Part shown: positions 11,151 to 49,015 of the stretch, in pieces
Numbering within the stretch: position 1 is the first letter of the stretch
Layout of the letters: every line of letters starts with the position of its first letter
Assembly (NCBI GenBank): GCA_946498975.1
Contig: CAMMQC010000008.1
Coordinates: forward strand, 1 to 49,414
DNA: 49,414 nucleotides
Direction: 5' to 3'
Source: an uncultured Mycoplasmatota bacterium
GTDB taxonomy: Bacteria > Bacillota_I > Bacilli_A > RF39 > UBA660
Translations under genes and position numbers: made by a program
Notes under the pieces: generated by a model
Databases searched by the model: none
The model's input: the letters and a program-made list of their open reading frames with translations, nothing else
Told to the model about the DNA's origin: nothing

Positions 11151-12419
11151 ATGAATAACAAAGGTTTTACTTTTATAGAATTACTAGCAACTATTACAAT
11201 ATTAGCCTTGATATTACTTTTAGTAATACCATCTCTTACAGCTTTAGTCAATAATAATGAAAATAAAATTTATGAATCTTATGGAGATAGTTTATTGGAA
11301 GCTTCTAAGATATATGTTAATAATGAAGGAGAAGATATCAATCCCCAAGGAATTAAAAACTGGCTTGGTTGTGTTGATATAACATATGAAGATTTAATTA
11401 ATAGTGATTTAATTAAACCTTTCCCAGAAGAAAATGTTGATTGCAGTGATGCCAAAGTTAGATACACAAAAAGCAAAGATGGCAATAGTTTCAGTTACGA
11501 CTTGACTTGTAAGGATGTAACTAATAATGAAATTTTGTATGAATATCATGGTATAGGCGGAGAAACTTGTAAAGTTATTGATGCCGATGATGTAACTCCC
11601 CCAATATGTGGCGAAGTTACTGGCGATAGTACAGAATGGACTAATGAAGCTAGAGAAATTACTATATCTTGTACTGACGAAAGTGGTTGTGAACCTGTTA
11701 CTAAAGTTTTCGATAGTACAACTCAAGTTGGATATATAACAATAGAAGATAATAATGGTAATAAAACAAGTTGTCCTGTCAATGCTTATGTTGATAAAAC
11801 TCCTCCAGTATGCTCTAATAGCGGAGGCAGTAGTAATTGGACTAAAGATGATGTTACCATATCTGGAACATGTACAGATTATGAAAGTGGTTGTCAGACA
11901 CCTTCTGTTAGTAAACTTTATAATAAAGAAGGAGAGTTTTTAAACCAATCTCCAGGGAAATTAACCGATAATGTAGGAAATACTACTACTTGTCCTACAA
12001 ACCAAACTGTAAGAATTGATAGAAGTGTAGCGACTCCTTATATTGTTGAATTAACAAATGAAAGAGCACCAATGGTTTGCAATTATACAACAGAACAAAT
12101 GAAAGCAGGAGTTTACGCTCCTATTAAATGTACTCTTTATGCCTATGATCCGCCTACTGGTTTTACTCAAAGATTTAGTGCAGATGATAAAGGTGGTAGT
12201 GGTATTAAAGATGAAATTTCCTACTTCCAAGGCTATGGTTCAAGTTCCTGTAGAGATCCTGGAAATGCTGGAACATTTCCATGGGGACAATGGAATACCA
12301 ATGCTTTAGGAAATTATGGTATATCACATTGTACTTATGCTGAATATTTTATAAGGCAACGAGATAATGTAGGAAATGTTAGTGAAACACTTACAATATA
12401 TATATATTACGGAAATTAA
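11151..12419 (+). CDS. Large pseudopilin with cysteine-rich repeated domains
   Basis: A 422-aa protein with a class III-type prepilin leader: MNNKG cleaved before FTFIELLATITILALI, the conserved Glu at position 5 of the mature protein, and a long hydrophobic helix. It is a predicted substrate of the prepilin peptidase at 1194-1961. A pilin-like region to about residue 130 is followed by at least two copies of a cysteine-bearing Ig-like module: PPICGEVTGDSTEWTN...ISCTDESGC and PPVCSNSGGSSNWTKDD...GTCTDYESGC, each ended by a VDKTPP/IDRS linker. The same module occurs in the pseudopilin at 17106-18653. The tail has further cysteines. AGGAGTGATAGG precedes the ATG. Probably a minor or tip pilin displaying a binding region. 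Confidence 0.85.
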   Translation: MNNKGFTFIELLATITILALILLLVIPSLTALVNNNENKIYESYGDSLLEASKIYVNNEGEDINPQGIKNWLGCVDITYEDLINSDLIKPFPEENVDCSDAKVRYTKSKDGNSFSYDLTCKDVTNNEILYEYHGIGGETCKVIDADDVTPPICGEVTGDSTEWTNEAREITISCTDESGCEPVTKVFDSTTQVGYITIEDNNGNKTSCPVNAYVDKTPPVCSNSGGSSNWTKDDVTISGTCTDYESGCQTPSVSKLYNKEGEFLNQSPGKLTDNVGNTTTCPTNQTVRIDRSVATPYIVELTNERAPMVCNYTTEQMKAGVYAPIKCTLYAYDPPTGFTQRFSADDKGGSGIKDEISYFQGYGSSSCRDPGNAGTFPWGQWNTNALGNYGISHCTYAEYFIRQRDNVGNVSETLTIYIYYGN

Positions 12420-17105: not shown

Positions 17106-18653
17106 TCAAAAATTAAACATTGTATTTTCATTAAATAAGCAATTGCCTGCATAATCACATAATCTAAAATTAGTTCTAACACTATGTCCCTTTACACAAT
17201 TTGCATTTACATGTGCTAAAGCAGAAGCTTGCACCCCAGATTCAACACTTGGATACTGAGTATATTGATAATAATACTTATACTTATCACCAAATATTGA
17301 ACTTGGATAATGAGAATATTGATTAGGAATACTACATGTAGCTCCACAAGTATCATAGTTGTGGCCTGTATAACAATATTCCCAATAAGATGTATTTTTG
17401 TCTATACCAGAAACATCATCTGTAATTATCCATCCAAAATAAGACCATGCTCCACTAGTATATTGATTATTAGAAATAACTTTTGGTAATGTCTTATCTA
17501 TATACTTATCAACTGTACAAGAAGTAGTATTTCCAGCTTTATCATATATATCTATGGTGCCTGTTTTCCCCTCTTTAGAAAAAGTCTTATTATAACTATT
17601 ATTTGCACATTCACCTATATCATCTTTGCACAATACAGATATATATCTATCCTGACTAGTCCATGTGGTACTAGCACCAGTTACAGTTGAACAAATTGGA
17701 GGTGTTCTATCTATTTTATAAGCTTCTGATGTTGAAACACAAGAATTTCCGTATTTATCGAACAATTCCACTTTAACATTATAAACACCTTCTTTTTTTA
17801 TTGTAACTGTAGAAGGTGTAGAACCAATATATGTATTAATTAGCTCCCTTTCACCATTACTGCTTTCTATACTTATTTCATATCTAAATGTACTTTCTGG
17901 TACTTTTATATTTAACGTAATATCCTTATTATACCAAGTATTTTCTTCAAATTCGCTTGAAACCGAAACTGAAGAGCAATCTACAGTATCAGATATTATA
18001 TATTCTCCAGATTTTTCAGATGATAAATTATTACTATTGTCTATTGCATATCCAGTTATTCTATATGAACCTAATTCTGTTAAATTAATTGTAATATCAC
18101 CATCATAAGTTTGATAACCACTATCTTGATAAGTCTCTCCATCTTTTTCAATTACATATCTATAAGTTGTAACTTCTACATTATCAGTAATAGACATAGT
18201 AACAGTAATAGAACTATTAGATGAACTAGTATTGGGGCTAAAAGCAATCATTGGTTTCTCTTTGTCTTTTTCAGTTTCATAATTAGAACATTTTAAAATA
18301 CTATAATATTGATAGTCTTTTTCTGTTATCTTTTGAACAGTAACACCACTATTAACAAAATCACAATCGTTACCATCTTTATCTTTTATAGGATCTATAT
18401 ATGATTCATCTATTAATGTTTTAACAGATACTGTAGCAGTCTCACCTATCTCTTTAGGAAGTTCACTTCTATAATCAGCAAAATACTCTCTCCCTGCTAA
18501 AATTAACATGTTTTCTTGAGAATCATAATAACTATCATTACCTCTATCTAAAACCGATCTAACACCTACATACGCTAATGTAAACAATAATCCCAATATA
18601 ATTATAGTTGCTAACATCTCTATTAATGTAAAAGCACTCTTATTATGATACAT
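17106..18653 (-). CDS. Large pseudopilin with Ig-like and cysteine-rich domains
   Basis: A 515-aa protein with a prepilin leader: MYHNKSA before FTLIEMLATIIILGLLF. The residue before the cleavage site is Ala, not the usual Gly; Glu5 of the mature protein is present. A pilin-like globular segment (YFADYRSELPKEIGE, then DKDGNDCDF, residues about 53-125) precedes several Ig-like domains. One module, PPICSTVTGASTTWTSQDRY with a later CKDDIGEC, matches the repeats of the pseudopilin at 11151-12419. The C-terminal 110 residues hold several more cysteines and aromatic residues and may be a binding head. AAGGAGTGATTTT precedes the ATG. It is predicted to be processed by the PilD at 1194-1961 and assembled by PilC. 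Confidence 0.85.
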   Translation of the reverse strand: MYHNKSAFTLIEMLATIIILGLLFTLAYVGVRSVLDRGNDSYYDSQENMLILAGREYFADYRSELPKEIGETATVSVKTLIDESYIDPIKDKDGNDCDFVNSGVTVQKITEKDYQYYSILKCSNYETEKDKEKPMIAFSPNTSSSNSSITVTMSITDNVEVTTYRYVIEKDGETYQDSGYQTYDGDITINLTELGSYRITGYAIDNSNNLSSEKSGEYIISDTVDCSSVSVSSEFEENTWYNKDITLNIKVPESTFRYEISIESSNGERELINTYIGSTPSTVTIKKEGVYNVKVELFDKYGNSCVSTSEAYKIDRTPPICSTVTGASTTWTSQDRYISVLCKDDIGECANNSYNKTFSKEGKTGTIDIYDKAGNTTSCTVDKYIDKTLPKVISNNQYTSGAWSYFGWIITDDVSGIDKNTSYWEYCYTGHNYDTCGATCSIPNQYSHYPSSIFGDKYKYYYQYTQYPSVESGVQASALAHVNANCVKGHSVRTNFRLCDYAGNCLFNENTMFNF

Positions 18654-32709: not shown

Positions 32710-34269
32710 CTATTTTGTTAAACCATTTTCTTCTATGTTAGTATTAGTAATTGTTACTTCTGTACTATATTGCCCTGTATTAGCATCATAAGTTATCGAA
32801 GCATCTCCACCATTAGCCATAACCTCAATAGCTTGATCTACTGCACTTTCTAAATCAGTATTACTATTTTCTATTGTATTTTGAGGTAAAGAAACTGTAT
32901 CTTCAGTATATGGTGTTTCTTCTTGATAAACAGGAACAATATCTGAATCATCGATTATATCTGTATCAGTGACATCTGTTAATTCATCATTAGTAATTTC
33001 TTCTTCATCACTAACATAATCACCATCAGCAGCGGTATCATTTGGATCTGGTAATTCTCCATAAATTATTTCATAATCTGAAGAACCATCATTTGTATAA
33101 TTAGGATCAAATGTATAATCATCATCAACAGAAGGATCATTTTCATAACCTTCATCAAAATCAATATCGCCTTCTGTTAATTCATCATCTTCATAGTTAT
33201 TATCTTCCTCATTATCATTAATATTACTATCTTCAGGTTCTTCAATTATTATTTCTTCACTATAATCATCATCAGTATTATTATCACCAGGAACATCTAC
33301 TTCTATTTCTTCACTATAATCTTCATCTTCAGAATTATTATTGTTATTGTTATTATCATTATCATTATTATCAACAGGCTCTTCACCTTCAATTACATTG
33401 TCGAAAGGATCTTCAGGTTGCTCATTTCCTTCTCCAGAGCCACCACCTTGATTATTAGAATCATCAAGACTAGCATCAGGATCTTGAAATTCATTCATAT
33501 CTTCATTAGTAGAACCTGGAGTTGAAGTAACATTAGAAGAAGTATTATTAGAAGAAGTATTATTAGAAGAAGTATTATTAGAAGATGATGAACCACTGTT
33601 TGTTGAAGAATAATTTGCATTTGAAGCGGTAGTCTCAGTAGCAGTTGTATCCGTAGTTTTAGTTTCTTCTTTTTCCTTAGTTTCTTTTTCTTCTTTAGCT
33701 TTATCTTCCTCTTCAGTTTTATCCTTATCATCAGTATCATCTACTGTTGCAATTCTACTATTATTAGCAGTTGGACCACTACAGCTATTTAATGAACAAG
33801 AAGCTATTCCCAAAGCTGTAAGAGTAGCAGCTGCACCAATTGCAACTTTCTTAACTTTCTTATTAAGCCATAAATTCTTAACTTTAGTTCCAAATTTAGA
33901 GTTAGAAATTTTCTCTTTAATCCTAGTAAAGATACCTTCTTCATCTTTATCATAATCATCTATAGCATTATCAAAATCATCATCATTTATTTTCTCATCT
34001 GGATTAGCTCTTTTTATTCTCTCAAGAACCTCATCATAATCTTTACAGTTCAAATTAAACCTATCCGGATCATTCACAATATTTTCATAATTGTCTTTAG
34101 TATAATCACTACTATTACAAAACTTTGCAGCCATACTAGCCGCTTCATCCCAGTCTTTAGTAAAATTATAATCTAACTTACCAGATGGCAACTTTGTAAC
34201 ATAAATATATAAATCACTACCATCATCATCTTTACACCTATAAAATCCAATTATTTTACTACTCATCAT
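32710..34269 (-). CDS. Acidic low-complexity protein with one internal membrane helix
   Basis: A 519-aa protein in three parts. Residues 1-140 form a soluble domain (IIGFYRCKDDDGSDLYIYV and CKDYDEVLERIKRANPDEK) that would stay in the cytoplasm. Residues about 141-165 are a helix (VKKVAIGAAATLTALGIASCS). The remaining 350 residues are a Ser/Thr/Asn- then Asp/Glu-rich extracellular stalk with almost no hydrophobic residues. Within it a 15-nt repeat encodes a run of Ser-Asn-Asn-Thr-Ser. Only the last 60 residues (LESAVDQAIEVMANGGDAS) look folded. GGGGGAATTAAT precedes the ATG pair. It lies 11 nt after the pilin-like gene at 34281. Function unknown; the shape is that of a surface spacer or tethering protein. 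Confidence 0.75.
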   Translation of the reverse strand: MMSSKIIGFYRCKDDDGSDLYIYVTKLPSGKLDYNFTKDWDEAASMAAKFCNSSDYTKDNYENIVNDPDRFNLNCKDYDEVLERIKRANPDEKINDDDFDNAIDDYDKDEEGIFTRIKEKISNSKFGTKVKNLWLNKKVKKVAIGAAATLTALGIASCSLNSCSGPTANNSRIATVDDTDDKDKTEEEDKAKEEKETKEKEETKTTDTTATETTASNANYSSTNSGSSSSNNTSSNNTSSNNTSSNVTSTPGSTNEDMNEFQDPDASLDDSNNQGGGSGEGNEQPEDPFDNVIEGEEPVDNNDNDNNNNNNNSEDEDYSEEIEVDVPGDNNTDDDYSEEIIIEEPEDSNINDNEEDNNYEDDELTEGDIDFDEGYENDPSVDDDYTFDPNYTNDGSSDYEIIYGELPDPNDTAADGDYVSDEEEITNDELTDVTDTDIIDDSDIVPVYQEETPYTEDTVSLPQNTIENSNTDLESAVDQAIEVMANGGDASITYDANTGQYSTEVTITNTNIEENGLTK

Positions 34270-34280
34270 ATTAATTCCCC

Positions 34281-35255
34281 CTATCTTATATTACCTGTAT
34301 AGGTATATCCTTGATTTAATAAATTAGTATCATTATAAGTACTCCATTTAGTATCAGTACCACCACTACTTAATAAAGTCCTAGTTCTCGTACTATAATA
34401 ATGTACAGTAGCATAAACTGGTCTACCATTAGAAGTACCTACTTTTTCTTTCCTTGAATATAGTTGAATTTCTTTCAAACAATTAACATCTGTATCACTA
34501 CATTTAATAGCACTATATCTATTACTATTACGAGCCCAACTACTCCAACTACTCCAAGCTGAAAATATTGGGTTAGTAACTTTCCTATATTCATACATTG
34601 TTGTCTTTTGATTTCCATTTGATGGTGCTGGTGGACTATTATTTGCACTACCAGTATTACTGTTGCTACTATTATTATAACCACTATTCTTTATATTAGA
34701 ACTATTATTATTAGTATCTTCTGTAATATCTACTTCTTTAGTAACTTCAGTCTCTTCTTCTTTCTTCTCATCTTTTTCTTTACTACTATCCCTCTTACAG
34801 ATAGTCTTATCACAGTAGCTGTATTCTCCTACTTTTTGTAAAGAATAGTCTTCTTTATCTTCACACTTCAAATTAACTCTTAAAGTATAATCATTATCAT
34901 TCTTAGTAAGTCTAATAAAACTTTCATTAACATCACATGATTTACCATTAGAATCAGTAAATGCTTCTAGAAGATTAGAATTAACCATTTCTCTTAATGT
35001 TAGTTCTATATTATCTCCTACTTCTTTAGGTAATCTATCTTTTGTAAAATATTCAAAGGCTGCATTTTCCATAGACTCTAAGTTTGCACTAAATACTTTA
35101 TCATAGTCTGAACTAGCTGTTTTATTATTACTAGTAGGACTAGTTACTTTAGTAATAATAAATATAATCAAAACTATAAAAATTATAACTACAATAGCTT
35201 TTAGTAAAATATCACGTAGTGGAAAACGACCTCTAGCATTTTCTTCTGTATACAT
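34281..35255 (-). CDS. Pilin-like membrane protein without prepilin leader, with TSP1-like tail
   Basis: A 324-aa protein starting at the ATG at 35255, preceded by AGGGGGCATGGAACT; the longer frame to 35318 is unlikely. After a basic N-terminus comes a strongly hydrophobic helix (AIVVIIFIVLIIFIITKV). The domain that follows (FEYFTKDRLPKEVGDN, LREMVNSNLLEAF, DSNGKSCDVNESF) matches the globular segment of the pseudopilin at 17106-18653 (YFADYRSELPKEIGE and DKDGNDCDF), but no G/A-FTxIE cleavage site is present. An acidic Lys/Glu and then Asn/Ser-rich linker leads to a C-terminal domain with a WSSWSSW motif and cysteines, resembling thrombospondin type 1 repeats. Co-transcribed with the gene at 32710. 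Confidence 0.75.
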   Translation of the reverse strand: MYTEENARGRFPLRDILLKAIVVIIFIVLIIFIITKVTSPTSNNKTASSDYDKVFSANLESMENAAFEYFTKDRLPKEVGDNIELTLREMVNSNLLEAFTDSNGKSCDVNESFIRLTKNDNDYTLRVNLKCEDKEDYSLQKVGEYSYCDKTICKRDSSKEKDEKKEEETEVTKEVDITEDTNNNSSNIKNSGYNNSSNSNTGSANNSPPAPSNGNQKTTMYEYRKVTNPIFSAWSSWSSWARNSNRYSAIKCSDTDVNCLKEIQLYSRKEKVGTSNGRPVYATVHYYSTRTRTLLSSGGTDTKWSTYNDTNLLNQGYTYTGNIR

Positions 35256-35304: not shown

Positions 35305-35562
35305 TTAAGGATTGTCAAATTTTAATCGTACAAGTGTACAGCCAGGATTCATAAAATCTATTTTATATTCTAACACACGTTTATCATTTTTTAAATAGTT
35401 AAAAACTGCTTTAGATAATATTCCTTTTCCAATACCATGAATGATAACAGCATACTCATGTTTTAATTTGTAACAATCTTCTATAAATTCTCTCACTTTA
35501 AAAATAGCATATTCCCTATCCATACCATGTAAATCTATTTTAGGATAACTAGATAATATCAA
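35305..35562 (-). CDS. Small Smr domain protein
   Basis: An 85-aa stand-alone Smr domain. The defining motifs are present: IDLHGMDREYAIFKVREFI near the N-terminus and IIHGIGKGILSKAV in the middle, then YKIDFMNPGCTLVRL. Smr domains bind or cleave nucleic acids; in MutS2 the domain acts in ribosome rescue and recombination. The frame opens with TTG at 35562 and overlaps the pfkB stop by 14 nt, so it depends on coupling to pfkB and, through it, on the intron-interrupted leader. Confidence 0.88.
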   Translation of the reverse strand: MILSSYPKIDLHGMDREYAIFKVREFIEDCYKLKHEYAVIIHGIGKGILSKAVFNYLKNDKRVLEYKIDFMNPGCTLVRLKFDNP

Positions 35563-36451
35563 CTAAATTCTTTCTTTCTAAAACAGCAGAAAGTTTTGGC
35601 ATGGAATACCTTCCTCCTACTTTTAAAGTTGATAAAGCTCCTGTTAAATTAGCAAGACGACAAGTATCTTCAAGAGAATAATTATGTGTTATAAAATAAG
35701 TAAAAGCTCCATGAAAAATATCCCCAGCACCAGTAGTATCAACTGCTTTTACTTTAACACTAGGTATTAATTTATATTCTTCCCCTATTTTAGTAAAGCA
35801 TCCCTTATCTTCCAAAGTAATAACAACTGTATTGTTAAAATCGTTAGTTAATTTCTTGTGAATTTCTATTAAATTTTCTATACTACCATCATAATTCATT
35901 TTAGTATAATCAAGAGCAAAATTTTTAGAACATACTAAATAATCTACTAAAGAACATAAAGCAACTGTAGACGGTTTATAACTACCAGCATCTATTATTT
36001 TAATAGCAGTATCATTGTTTTGTAATATTCTCCTACTCATCTCTTCCTCTTCACCGTCAACTAAAATCACATCATACTTATTATCATTAGGCACACTGCA
36101 TTTAGGAACATTATCATCTTTACTAGTTAGTATTGTTCTACTAGCATTAGTAGCATTCGCTAAAATAATACTAAGATCAGTATTAAAGTTATCAACTAAT
36201 TCTAAGTAAGTAGTATCAACATCTACACTGTTAAACTCTGCTTTTATTAATTTACCATAATAGTCATTACCTGCTACACCTTGAAATGCTACATCACATC
36301 CCCACAAAGCTAACAAGTATCCTGCATTACTAGCAGGACCTCCTCCACAATCTATGTGTTTACCTACTCTTTGTTTAGTATTTTCTTTAGGATATTTATC
36401 AACTCTAAAAGTAACATCATAAGATGCATGACCTATCGCTAAATATTTCAT
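35549..36451 (-). CDS. PfkB family carbohydrate/nucleoside kinase
   Basis: A 300-aa ribokinase-fold enzyme. The N-terminal signature GGGPASNAGYLLALWG binds the sugar or nucleoside, and the C-terminal signature DTTGAGDIFHGAF holds the catalytic Asp and anion hole. The substrate cannot be told; ribokinase, fructokinase and nucleoside kinases share these motifs. No ribosome binding site is adjacent to the ATG in the DNA. Instead, a Shine-Dalgarno AGAGGTGAT sits at 39072-39080, immediately upstream of a group II intron (36456-39071) in the same orientation. Splicing would bring it within about 6-9 bases of this ATG. Expression is therefore predicted to need splicing. Confidence 0.93.
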   Translation of the reverse strand: MKYLAIGHASYDVTFRVDKYPKENTKQRVGKHIDCGGGPASNAGYLLALWGCDVAFQGVAGNDYYGKLIKAEFNSVDVDTTYLELVDNFNTDLSIILANATNASRTILTSKDDNVPKCSVPNDNKYDVILVDGEEEEMSRRILQNNDTAIKIIDAGSYKPSTVALCSLVDYLVCSKNFALDYTKMNYDGSIENLIEIHKKLTNDFNNTVVITLEDKGCFTKIGEEYKLIPSVKVKAVDTTGAGDIFHGAFTYFITHNYSLEDTCRLANLTGALSTLKVGGRYSMPKLSAVLERKNLVDII

Positions 36452-36595: not shown

Positions 36596-36931
36596 CTAAA
36601 TTGTTAGCAAGTTGTTCTCCTTTCTTATAATATTTATTTCCTCTAGTTGTTTAGAAGTCAACCCCTTTTTGAGTCTTATCATCTCTATCAAGTCATCAAC
36701 TTCTTTCTTTTCTATTAGTTCTTTTACTTTCTTTTCTACTAGAATTATATTATCATATTTATTGTTAAAAGGAGTATTTTTCCTTTTAACTATTTTTAAA
36801 TTTGATATATCTAGTATCATTTTATTAGTAAAAGCATATTTACCTAATTGTCCACAGAACTTTGATATTACATTATCATTAAATTCTACTGTTTCATTTG
36901 GGTAAGGATTTTTGAGTATTATCTCTATCAT
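36596..36931 (-). CDS. Second intron-encoded protein, unknown
   Basis: A 111-aa frame inside domain IV, downstream of the RT gene and overlapping its stop by the ATGA arrangement, so translationally coupled. The N-terminus (MIEIILKNPYPNETVEFNDN) is beta-like and the C-terminal half is Lys/Glu-rich and helical (EKKVKELIEKKEVDDLIEMI). It has no HNH or other nuclease motif. Most group II introns encode only the RT; some carry an extra gene of unknown role. I cannot assign a family. Confidence 0.65.
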   Translation of the reverse strand: MIEIILKNPYPNETVEFNDNVISKFCGQLGKYAFTNKMILDISNLKIVKRKNTPFNNKYDNIILVEKKVKELIEKKEVDDLIEMIRLKKGLTSKQLEEINIIRKENNLLTI

Positions 36932-38349
36932 ATAAAGGTTTTAATCTTTAGTTCTTTATAGAACTTATCTCTTGATTTACTATCATAGTAATCAATTTTA
37001 TCTCCTTTATATTTTGGCTCTTGATATTTTACTTTTTCTATCAAGGCTAGAGGTTTACCTCTTATATATGGTATCTTTTTACCATATGTTTTTACTACAA
37101 AGTTATCTTCATTGATATCTTCGTCGAAAGTAAGAACTCCTAAGAAATTCTTATTTATGTATGCATTTATTATAATCCCAAGTTTATGCAAGTTAGGTAA
37201 TATATTAGTAGCTTTACAGTAATATCCATGTATTCCTATCACCATACTATTATATTTATCTATTTCTTCTTTGCATTTTTTCTTATTCCATTTACTTTTC
37301 TTAATTTCTCGTACCTGCTTTTTAAGTTTATCAGTTGTATTTTTAATGGCTTTGTCAGTCATATTACTAACTACTTTTAACTTACCCTTATGTTTCTTTA
37401 GTTTAAATCTAAAGCCTAAAAAGTAAGAGTTTGTTTTCTTTAGATTTACTATTTTGGTTTTCTCTTCACTCACTTCAAGTTTTAGCCTTTTCTTTAGCCA
37501 TATTGTTGTTTTATCTAACATATCACTTGCAACCTGATATGTAGGACACAATATTTTAAAGTCATCGGCATATCTTACAAATCGAATACCTTTATTCTTT
37601 TTACTATCTAACCACCAATCTAGTTCATTTAATACTACATTTGCAAGTAGCGGTGATAGTATTCCTCCTTGTGGAGTCCCCTTATTAGGTATTCCTACAC
37701 CTTTGACTTCTGCTTTTAGCATCTTTGAAATGATTGACAGTAGATTCTTATCTCGTATTCCTAGTTGCCATAACTGTTTTAAGAGTTTACCATGGTTTAT
37801 ATTATCAAAGAATCCTTTGATATCTATATCTACCACATAGTAAAGCTTTTCTTTTACAACATAGTTAGTCATTTGACTTATTGCCCTAGAACAACTTCTT
37901 CCTTCTATAAAGCCATTACTATTATTATGAAATTTAGGAATTAGTATTGGGTTTAGTACTTGATATATCGCTTGTAGGGCAATCTTTTCTATCGGCTCTT
38001 TTATTCCTAGATATCTAATTTTTCCATTAGATTTAGGAATACCAACTCTTTTAATCGTTGATGGTGTATAATTATCTAGTTGTTCTTTTATCTTCTTCAA
38101 GTACTTATAGAGTTTCATATTACTTATAAAATCCATATTATTACCACTTAGTCCTCTAGCTTTACTTCCACCATTATTTTTGATGTTTCTATAGGCTAGC
38201 CTAATGTTAGTATCTTCATTTATGTATTTCATTAAATCATGGAATACATAATTATTTTTACTTCTTTTATTAAGTACATCAAACTCTTCTTGCATACAAT
38301 AATATTCGTTATTTCTTAGTTGCACGATTTTAGTTTTCTCTTCTCCCAT
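36928..38349 (-). CDS. ltrA: Group II intron reverse transcriptase/maturase
   Basis: A 473-aa intron-encoded protein that helps splicing and copies the intron into new sites. RT motifs in order: IKNNGGSKARGLSG (RT0/1), RVGIPKSNGKIRYLGI, FIEGRSCSRAISQM, VVDIDIKGFFDNINH (first catalytic Asp), GTPQGGILSPLLANVVLNEL, FVRYADDFKIL (YADD), and FLGFRFKLKK, followed by the X/maturase domain. All catalytic residues are present. There is no C-terminal HNH endonuclease, so mobility would use nicked or single-stranded targets. The PQGGILSP motif distinguishes it from DGR reverse transcriptases. A weak AGGAAAC lies some 15 bases before the ATG. Confidence 0.96.
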   Translation of the reverse strand: MGEEKTKIVQLRNNEYYCMQEEFDVLNKRSKNNYVFHDLMKYINEDTNIRLAYRNIKNNGGSKARGLSGNNMDFISNMKLYKYLKKIKEQLDNYTPSTIKRVGIPKSNGKIRYLGIKEPIEKIALQAIYQVLNPILIPKFHNNSNGFIEGRSCSRAISQMTNYVVKEKLYYVVDIDIKGFFDNINHGKLLKQLWQLGIRDKNLLSIISKMLKAEVKGVGIPNKGTPQGGILSPLLANVVLNELDWWLDSKKNKGIRFVRYADDFKILCPTYQVASDMLDKTTIWLKKRLKLEVSEEKTKIVNLKKTNSYFLGFRFKLKKHKGKLKVVSNMTDKAIKNTTDKLKKQVREIKKSKWNKKKCKEEIDKYNSMVIGIHGYYCKATNILPNLHKLGIIINAYINKNFLGVLTFDEDINEDNFVVKTYGKKIPYIRGKPLALIEKVKYQEPKYKGDKIDYYDSKSRDKFYKELKIKTFI

Positions 38350-48055: not shown

Positions 48056-48976
48056 CTACATAAGCCTTGCTATTTGACTTTTAGATAGTCCTGTATACTC
48101 ACATACTTTAGGAATAGGTAATCCATCTTTAAGAAGATTCTTTGCAATAGATTTTTTTTCATTACTAGCACCTTGCTTAATGCCTTGTTTAACTCCTTGT
48201 TTAAGTCCTTGTTTAAGTCCTTGTTTTTTAGCAGTAATTTTTATACTGTTTTCTATTCTTCTTCTTTCCTCTTCTTCATCATAAAGTCCAATAGTATATG
48301 CATCATTAGTTAATCTTTTTAATTCATTAGCAACTTCCATCAACTCAACATCTCCTTCCGCTATCTTTTCAATCTCATCAACTTTTGTTAAAGTTAATAT
48401 TACTAGTTCTTTTTCTAATTTAGTTAACTCTAATCCTCTATCATACTTTTCTCTTATTAATTTTAAATTAACATATATTTTACCCCATTTATCACTTTCT
48501 ATTATTCCATATTTATCTCTTGATTTAAATTCTAATAGATTCTCCTTATTTAAGAAACAATAAAAGTTATTAATATTTATCTGTATTACTTTAGGCATAC
48601 TAGCATAACTTTTCGCTTTTCTTATTAAATCATTTTTTATTTTACCTAAATAAGCATCATTTCTCTCAATTAAGCCATTCCATTTTCTATTATTAAACTC
48701 AAAGTTAAAAACATAGCCTTTTGTTTTAAATAAAACATCTGATACTTTACCTTTTTCTAAAACATTATCTATTACATACTCAGTATTCATTTCTTTATAA
48801 GTATTTAATATTAACTCTTTAGATACACTTGTTAATTTAGATGTAGTATCTGCTCTATATTTAGGACAGTTTCTCATAATAGCTTTATATATACAGTCAT
48901 AAGTAGCAGGAACAATCTCACCTTTTCTTCTTAAGTCTTTAACTATTTCTTCAAATCTTTTCTTAGTAATAGCCAA
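48056..48976 (-). CDS. Rpn/PD-(D/E)XK nuclease family transposase-like protein
   Basis: A 306-aa protein starting at the TTG at 48976, which has AAAGGAGGAATTTCC upstream; a longer frame to 49015 begins before that ribosome binding site. The middle part (KGKVSDVLFKTKGYVFNFEFNNR, with Asp and Glu spaced as in PD-(D/E)XK nucleases, then RKAKSYASM and VIQININNF) matches the Rpn/YhgA-type family often annotated as PD-(D/E)XK nuclease family transposase. Near the C-terminus a KQG tetrapeptide is repeated five times (KKQGLKQGLKQG and onward), followed by a small helix-turn-helix (PKVCEYTGLSKSQIARLM). Such proteins promote RecA-independent recombination in characterised cases. Confidence 0.8.
   Translation of the reverse strand: MAITKKRFEEIVKDLRRKGEIVPATYDCIYKAIMRNCPKYRADTTSKLTSVSKELILNTYKEMNTEYVIDNVLEKGKVSDVLFKTKGYVFNFEFNNRKWNGLIERNDAYLGKIKNDLIRKAKSYASMPKVIQININNFYCFLNKENLLEFKSRDKYGIIESDKWGKIYVNLKLIREKYDRGLELTKLEKELVILTLTKVDEIEKIAEGDVELMEVANELKRLTNDAYTIGLYDEEEERRRIENSIKITAKKQGLKQGLKQGVKQGIKQGASNEKKSIAKNLLKDGLPIPKVCEYTGLSKSQIARLM
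48168..48230 (-). repeat. 12-nt tandem repeats encoding KQGL units
   Basis: AAGTCCTTGTTT, with variants, repeats five times on the plus strand and encodes K-Q-G-L/V/I. Copy number may vary between strains through slippage. Confidence 0.8.
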
Positions 48977-49015
48977 GGAAATTCCTCCTTTCTGCAATAC
49001 ATATAACATAGTCAA

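Follow-up and report, generated by a model that had tools for sequence, protein, structure and literature searches.

Pilin-like proteins on a membrane anchor without a recognised prepilin motif in an uncultured gut Bacilli family: probable stationary proteins of the cell envelope

An uncultured gut bacterium encodes a protein whose pilin-like head sits on a membrane anchor without a recognised prepilin motif. We think it probable that this protein, a type IV pilin paralogue, no longer takes part in the filament and has become a stationary protein of the envelope or surface, most likely together with a neighbour encoded downstream. The stretch of DNA that was analysed (the window, 49,414 nucleotides) belongs to a genome of 1.50 Mb that is 95% complete; its closest named relatives are uncultured Bacilli and Candidatus Onthousia (placed by the taxonomy in Bacilli incertae sedis), and we take the order of the host lineage to be RF39. 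The gene is a genuine ORF of 324 codons for amino acids, with MYTEEN as the first residues of the product and MYTEENARGRFPLRDILLK as its N-terminal sequence. A longer ORF with a TTG start is also on the ORF list for this place, and MY stands at the equivalent start in 45 of 48 members of the protein family, here called family F (own copy counted; starts chosen by script). Features of the window are collected in Table 1. An earlier note on this DNA had made the observation from the letters alone, and we could confirm it; its interpretation survives in part, since a pilin-like domain does sit on an anchor without a recognisable motif; a new anchor is improbable, and a thrombospondin-type-1 (TSP1) tail is not supported.

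Table 1. Coordinates of the family F protein, its parts, its gene neighbours and the two pseudopilins in the window.
Feature	Coordinates	Strand	Basis
Family F protein, 324 aa: anchor, pilin-like head, low-complexity linker and C-terminal beta domain	34281..35255	-	ORF, start, relatives
Predicted membrane helix, residues 13-38	35142..35219	-	Model and alignments; F11 just before the helix, D15 at its start
Pilin-like head, residues 50-148: helix 50-69 and beta strands	34812..35108	-	Profile E 1.4e-18; block pLDDT 80-93; PilA Z 5.9
Linker, residues 149-218, mostly low-complexity and low-confidence	34602..34811	-	pLDDT <50 at 162-215
C-terminal beta domain, residues 219-324, ending KWSTYND..LL..GYTYTGN	34284..34601	-	Model of the domain alone, pLDDT 92.4
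WSSWSSW motif, residues 234-240	34536..34556	-	Sequence; W..W..W in 25/26 full rows
Co-encoded neighbour, candidate partner: N-terminal part, one hydrophobic segment, long acidic low-complexity tail	32710..34269	-	BLAST relative in 24/31 named loci
Small gene upstream of F, presumably Smr-like	35305..35562	-	In 30/31 named loci
Gene upstream of F, presumably a PfkB-like sugar kinase	35549..36451	-	In 29/31 named loci
First pseudopilin, true and modular, head homologous to that of the family F protein	17106..18653	-	N_methyl over cut-off, TIGR02532, profile homology
Second pseudopilin, true, beside F in the tree	11151..12419	+	N_methyl over cut-off, TIGR02532, tree

The earlier note had proposed that the segment after the membrane helix aligns with the globular part of a neighbouring pseudopilin family, and both profile comparison and structure prediction bore this out. 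The two string pairs that it quoted are present, RLPKEVGD and DSNGKSCD in the family F protein and ELPKEIGE and DKDGNDCD in the first pseudopilin of the window. Profile-profile comparison of 26 family F rows (profile A1, 26 of the 48 members) with 28 pseudopilin rows gave a probability of 99.1, an E value of 1.4e-18 and a score of 98.6; only soluble parts were compared, and therefore the membrane helices were unable to contribute. Scores reached at most 18.7 over 20 column shuffles and 8.8 for a reversed profile, and because the real score is far above both, the likeness of the quoted strings is beyond chance. The predicted head has a helix (residues 50 to 69) at the place of pilin alpha1C, with beta strands after it. 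In the fold search, for which 976 chains were re-aligned, two pilins were the best two of 50 entries listed: the minor pilin PilA of S. sanguinis (7o5y; Z 5.9, rmsd 3.7, 91 residues aligned) and ComZ of Thermus (Z 4.9, rmsd 4.2, 97 residues aligned), with further pilin entries (8pfb, 8p3b, 1hpw) lower among the matches and mixed with unrelated ones. On the scale that the tool itself gives, Z values of this size are middling, and the sequence evidence is the stronger of the two. Head cysteines C107 and C131 are invariant in the 26-row alignment A1 and stand, by eye, at the same places in the pseudopilins. A PDB sequence search with the head profile returned nothing meaningful, and Foldseek, run with the whole model, found no match with E ≤ 0.001; we took the ribosomal and flavivirus envelope rows of the Foldseek searches as noise.

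The gene keeps its surroundings among close relatives. Of 31 named loci, 29 have the order pfkB, smr, F, the exceptions being L114, with smr only, and the fragment L117. In 24 of the 31, F is followed by a BLAST relative of the acidic neighbour (E ≤ 1e-4, low-complexity filter off); with this setting, the weakest matches (E about 1e-5) may reflect composition. These named loci also supply alignments A3 (window protein and 26 of 31, without L097, L101, L102, L115 and L117; a few rows are cut by 1 to 4 residues at the C-terminal end, and L112, L114 and L116 give the N-terminal part only) and A4 (window protein and 28 of 31, without L097, L101 and L115; L114, L116 and L117 give the last 55 residues only). 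They partly repeat genomes that we also counted under genome handles, so counts from the two sets are not independent. We also looked at 19 more distant loci, of which 18 come from other genera and one belongs to a divergent member of the genus. Eight of them have both pfkB and smr upstream of F and one has smr only; some stretches stop a short way upstream. Downstream of F, a large single-span protein was seen by eye in 8 of these 19 (L035, L036, L038-L041, L047 and L053), and the neighbour is not clearly visible in 11. The neighbour in the window received no convincing Pfam family name; its tail is very acidic and rich in Asn, Asp and Ser, and the single-span proteins at the same place in other genera have, by eye, long and less acidic ectodomains. 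From gene order, it is perhaps a partner of the family F protein. Two further features were seen in passing: the gene at 36928-38349, which adjoins the pfkB-smr-F cluster, looks to us like a group II intron reverse transcriptase, and the very similar proteins (by eye) encoded at window 48056-49015 and L086 11938-12879, on two contigs of one genome, come perhaps from a mobile Rpn-type gene.

Family F is widespread in the taxonomic family of the host. Strong matches to profile A1 (E ≤ 2e-22, a threshold at which true pilins, the best of which reaches 5.6e-17, are left out) occur in 47 of 58 family genomes, with 57 genera sampled; three of the 47 lie in ORFs of at most 180 aa. When a sample of the class was searched at E ≤ 0.001, with pilins counted, 52 of 54 listed family genomes matched versus 10 of 341 others, nine of these weakly. 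The pilus machine has a similar spread, T2SSF being present in 37 of 39 family genomes; the two genomes in which F is present and T2SSF seemingly absent (G020 and G048) both hold T2SSE, and the missing T2SSF therefore looks like an assembly gap. One could accordingly suppose that the protein is a fixed part of that machine, its tethered head mimicking a pilin and docking on the platform or on minor pilins as a primer, brake or stator. In favour of this are the homology of the head to pilins from the same genome, the presence in genome G044 of two ORFs with T2SSF some 10 kb away from F, and the precedent of archaellin paralogues that became a putative stator (described in portions of PMC8667602 and PMC12024892). 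Co-occurrence is unable to prove a link between F and the machine, however, because the machine is near universal in the family, and seven genomes (G040, G043, G047, G052, G057, G058 and G059) have T2SSF and T2SSE matches without a strong F match. Nor does any pilus-machine gene lie directly beside F in the window, and none was noticed among the downstream genes of the 19 more distant loci. We consider a role as a machine part unlikely. The seven machine-bearing genomes that lack a strong F match, together with the precedent of the archaellin paralogues ArlF and ArlG, lead us to favour a stationary envelope protein.

Pilins are defined by a cleaved signal peptide of class III, which has Gly or Ala before the cleavage site, a hydrophobic stretch and Glu at +5. 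The window encodes a presumed prepilin peptidase at 1194-1961. Both pseudopilins in the window score over the cut-offs of Pfam N_methyl and NCBIfam TIGR02532, and the family F protein has no match to either model. TIGR02532 is likewise absent among the 25 families listed of 31 that match any of 26 family F members, and the ComGC and ComGF models weakly match one member each (E 0.036 and 0.063). Across the 26 rows, Gly occupies the column before Phe in 3, position +4 is K or R in 22, position +5 is D in 16, N in 5 and E in 0, and position +9 is K, R or Q in 24. In a global profile alignment, F11 falls on F+1 and D15 on E+5 of true pilins, a register that is suggestive and not proof because global mode forces the ends to pair. 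The distance from F+1 to the head Tyr is 49 residues in all 30 distinct pilins and 49 to 78 in family F, where 8 of 26 rows keep a near-pilin spacing (49 to 53) and 4 of these 8 have Phe at +1. Charges in the first 26 residues number 1 or 2 in 30/30 pilins; family F has 3 or 4 in 14 of 26 rows and 1 or 2 in the remaining 12. In the model, two helices (residues 13 to 38 and 50 to 69) are separated by a low-confidence break at 39 to 49, where a pilin has one continuous helix of about 50 residues. Since register and spacing fit a decayed prepilin signal, we infer that the anchor is probably such a signal that decayed in place, with the linker gained later, rather than a swapped-in helix, and that the head probably did not move onto a new anchor. 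The note had described a pilin-like domain moved onto a non-cleavable anchor, with a plain helix replacing the prepilin motif. The domain and the lack of a recognisable cleavage motif hold, and the move and the replacement probably do not. A family F member in genome G060 (L046 5020-6600) has GFSVKDFILK, which is near the prepilin motif, at a spacing of 50 to the head; it is a possible intermediate and a lead only.

Could family F proteins still be pilins, processed in a non-standard way (after Gly9, or at GFSVKD in L046) and built as modular minor pilins into the filament or its tip? The F/D register and the rows with pilin-like charge numbers agree with this, as does the frequency of modular pilins with large grafted C-terminal domains (reported in part of PMC8179133). 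Gly at residue 9 is kept in the genus of the window protein, so cleavage after it could occur there. Across genera, however, this Gly is not conserved; the lack of a TIGR02532 match, the extra charges that 14 of 26 rows would bring into the filament core, and a linker of up to 29 added residues, which breaks the pilin spacing, likewise make retention as a pilin improbable, and we keep to a stationary envelope protein.

Family F is accompanied by two other sets of proteins in which a similar head follows a plain helix. In family S (about 600 aa), the plain helix and the head precede an Ig-like domain and a DUF6273-like part, and strong matches occur in 10 of 58 family genomes (E ≤ 4e-31); in family M (about 400 aa), an N-terminal tail comes before the plain helix and the head, and a weak DUF6273-like part after them, with strong matches in 25 of 58 (E ≤ 2.1e-20). 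The genome that holds the window encodes one of each: an S member on contig 7 (L084 4588-6426), with a sortase-like gene after it, and an M member on contig 3 (L147 2184-3404). Relatives of the latter are found in L131-L136, where the neighbours look to us like a histidine kinase and a SpoVAD-like protein. When F, the pseudopilins, S (3 rows) and M (6 rows) were compared as profiles, all six pairwise scores were above their own 20 shuffles. The S sets differ in size, with 3 of 15 members in the pairwise comparison (a strict search pattern), 15 in the tree and 17 of 19 in alignment A5.

In a tree built from 83 columns, S (99.8/97) and M (97.5/99) are supported, M pairs with a true pilin of the same genome (91/97), and the second pseudopilin of the window stands among or beside F; F is no clean group because this pilin falls among its basal members. 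The deep nodes are weak, and the tree does not join F, S and M. A single origin of the three families, which we had considered, is not borne out by it, and more than one conversion from pilin to tethered protein is therefore likely, not proven. As for the fuller proposal, that F, S and M record prepilins that repeatedly, at least two separate times, lost the signal-peptide motif and became stationary membrane-tethered envelope proteins, we put the chances at even. The reverse direction would make the head a surface domain in general use in this lineage, taken over by pilins from tethered proteins; the presence of the head in all three tethered families speaks for it. We nevertheless give it little credence: the unit in common includes the pilin alpha1C helix, the best solved matches are pilins, and the tree, for all its weak deep nodes, sets M and F beside different pilins.

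Modelled alone, the C-terminal domain is predicted with high confidence to be a beta domain (pLDDT 92.4). The WSxWSxW motif that the earlier note had pointed out is present, and it is kept among the 26 full C-domains of close relatives as W..W..W in 25 and in strict form in 24; RTR comes after it in 25 of the 26 rows, KWS.YND occurs in 26/26, and every row has exactly two cysteines. In the 19 more distant members, strict patterns picked up the KWS...GY..TG block in 14 and the W..W block in 6; long inserts often separate the two, and some of the misses are due to the patterns themselves. The C-domain alone has no Foldseek match at E ≤ 0.001, nor any match in plasmids and phages at E ≤ 0.01. Its profile matched 6 of 295 genomes of the phylum, all from the same family, and every match lies inside a family F ORF; in the genome sample searched, the domain was thus seen only in family F. 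Five other listed family genomes have F matches and no C-domain match at E ≤ 1e-4, and therefore the domain is not constant even within F.

TSP1 repeats have a conserved cysteine pattern with CSxTC. The suggestion of a thrombospondin-type-1-like tail found no backing: the TSP_1 profile matched neither the window protein nor 29 C-domain members nor genome G000 (E up to 1), and the search for similar folds gave a best Z of 2.5 among the solved chains listed, with no TSP1 chain among them, an absence that proves nothing by itself. We rejected TSP1 identity, as the domain has two cysteines, no TSP_1 profile match and WxxWxxW alone in common with the repeat. It is very improbable that the tail is a TSP1-like adhesin binding glycosaminoglycans or host matrix through a Trp-Arg ladder, since the WxxWxxW and later RTR of close relatives and the rank of properdin as best PDB sequence match (E about 1 over 28 residues) stand against two cysteines throughout, no TSP_1 match and a W..W block in only 6 of the 19 more distant members. 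TSP1 repeats do occur elsewhere in the sample: a true prepilin of another related genus (L146 2182-5136, minus strand, genome G038), with GFTMVELL and an N_methyl match over the cut-off, carries them (TSP_1 E 8.4e-07 and TSP1_ADAMTS E 2.1e-06, both over cut-off), and of 20 genomes G038 is the only one with a TSP_1 match.

As a stationary envelope protein, a family F protein could have arisen and could work as follows. Its class III signal peptide would have decayed, mostly losing Gly before Phe and acquiring a basic residue at +4, Asp or Asn for Glu at +5, and Gln or another basic residue at +9; most members would then have gained a flexible linker between anchor and head. With the signal decayed and the linker in place, the protein is proposed to remain in the cytoplasmic membrane, which it would span once, with its N-terminus inside and its pilin head outside. 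Pilins themselves sit in the membrane at first, their heads on the outer side, and processing precedes their extraction into the filament (as outlined in part of PMC10191384); an uncut head with charges at the would-be filament core should therefore remain in the membrane. The head would then form a membrane-proximal module, the low-complexity linker would reach into or through the wall, the C-terminal beta domain would be displayed, and the protein may act together with its co-encoded neighbour.

This arrangement suggests that parts of a pilus have been reused as fixed surface proteins in a gut bacterium. A widely kept family with a pilin head and no recognised signal would show filament subunits becoming fixed parts of the envelope, and such proteins would escape surveys that rely on the prepilin motif. 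For an uncultured gut lineage, the result provides surface proteins that can be tested, together with a C-terminal domain unseen outside the family in the sample. Among the titles and abstract openings that our searches of an open-access library listed, none concerned a bacterial pilin head on an uncleaved anchor.

Several known systems resemble the family F protein in part. The best of the listed structural matches to its head, at a middling Z over 91 residues, is the PilA minor pilin of S. sanguinis (7o5y), which is a filament pilin, unlike the tethered protein proposed here. The modular pilins PilB and PilC of S. sanguinis, in which a foreign C-terminal domain follows the pilin head after a linker (PMC10191384 and PMC8179133, in the sections relevant here), have in common with it a pilin head and a C-terminal domain after a linker. 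They differ in having a class III signal peptide and a place in the filament, whereas the family F protein has no recognised signal and has a linker between anchor and head. CpaL/TadG of Tad pili likewise combines a pilin-like module with a large C-terminal domain; going by parts of PMC12607857 and PMC13170226, CpaL carries a vWA domain and a potential site of prepilin cleavage, and we saw neither in the family F protein. A functional analogy, and only that, comes from ArlF and ArlG, paralogues of archaellar filament subunits that became static envelope proteins, as we propose for family F. According to portions of PMC12024892 and PMC8667602, their N-terminal helices are shorter by 15 to 20 residues, ArlF is secreted in full-length form and attaches to the S-layer, and ArlG is cleaved by an unknown protease; they are archaeal, have the archaellin beta-sandwich and play a role in rotation, of which the family F protein gives no sign. 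Repeated loss of the signal motif in this gut Bacilli family may, with the case for and against about equally strong, prove to be both the reverse of what modular pilins have done and a bacterial counterpart of the conversion from archaellin to stator.
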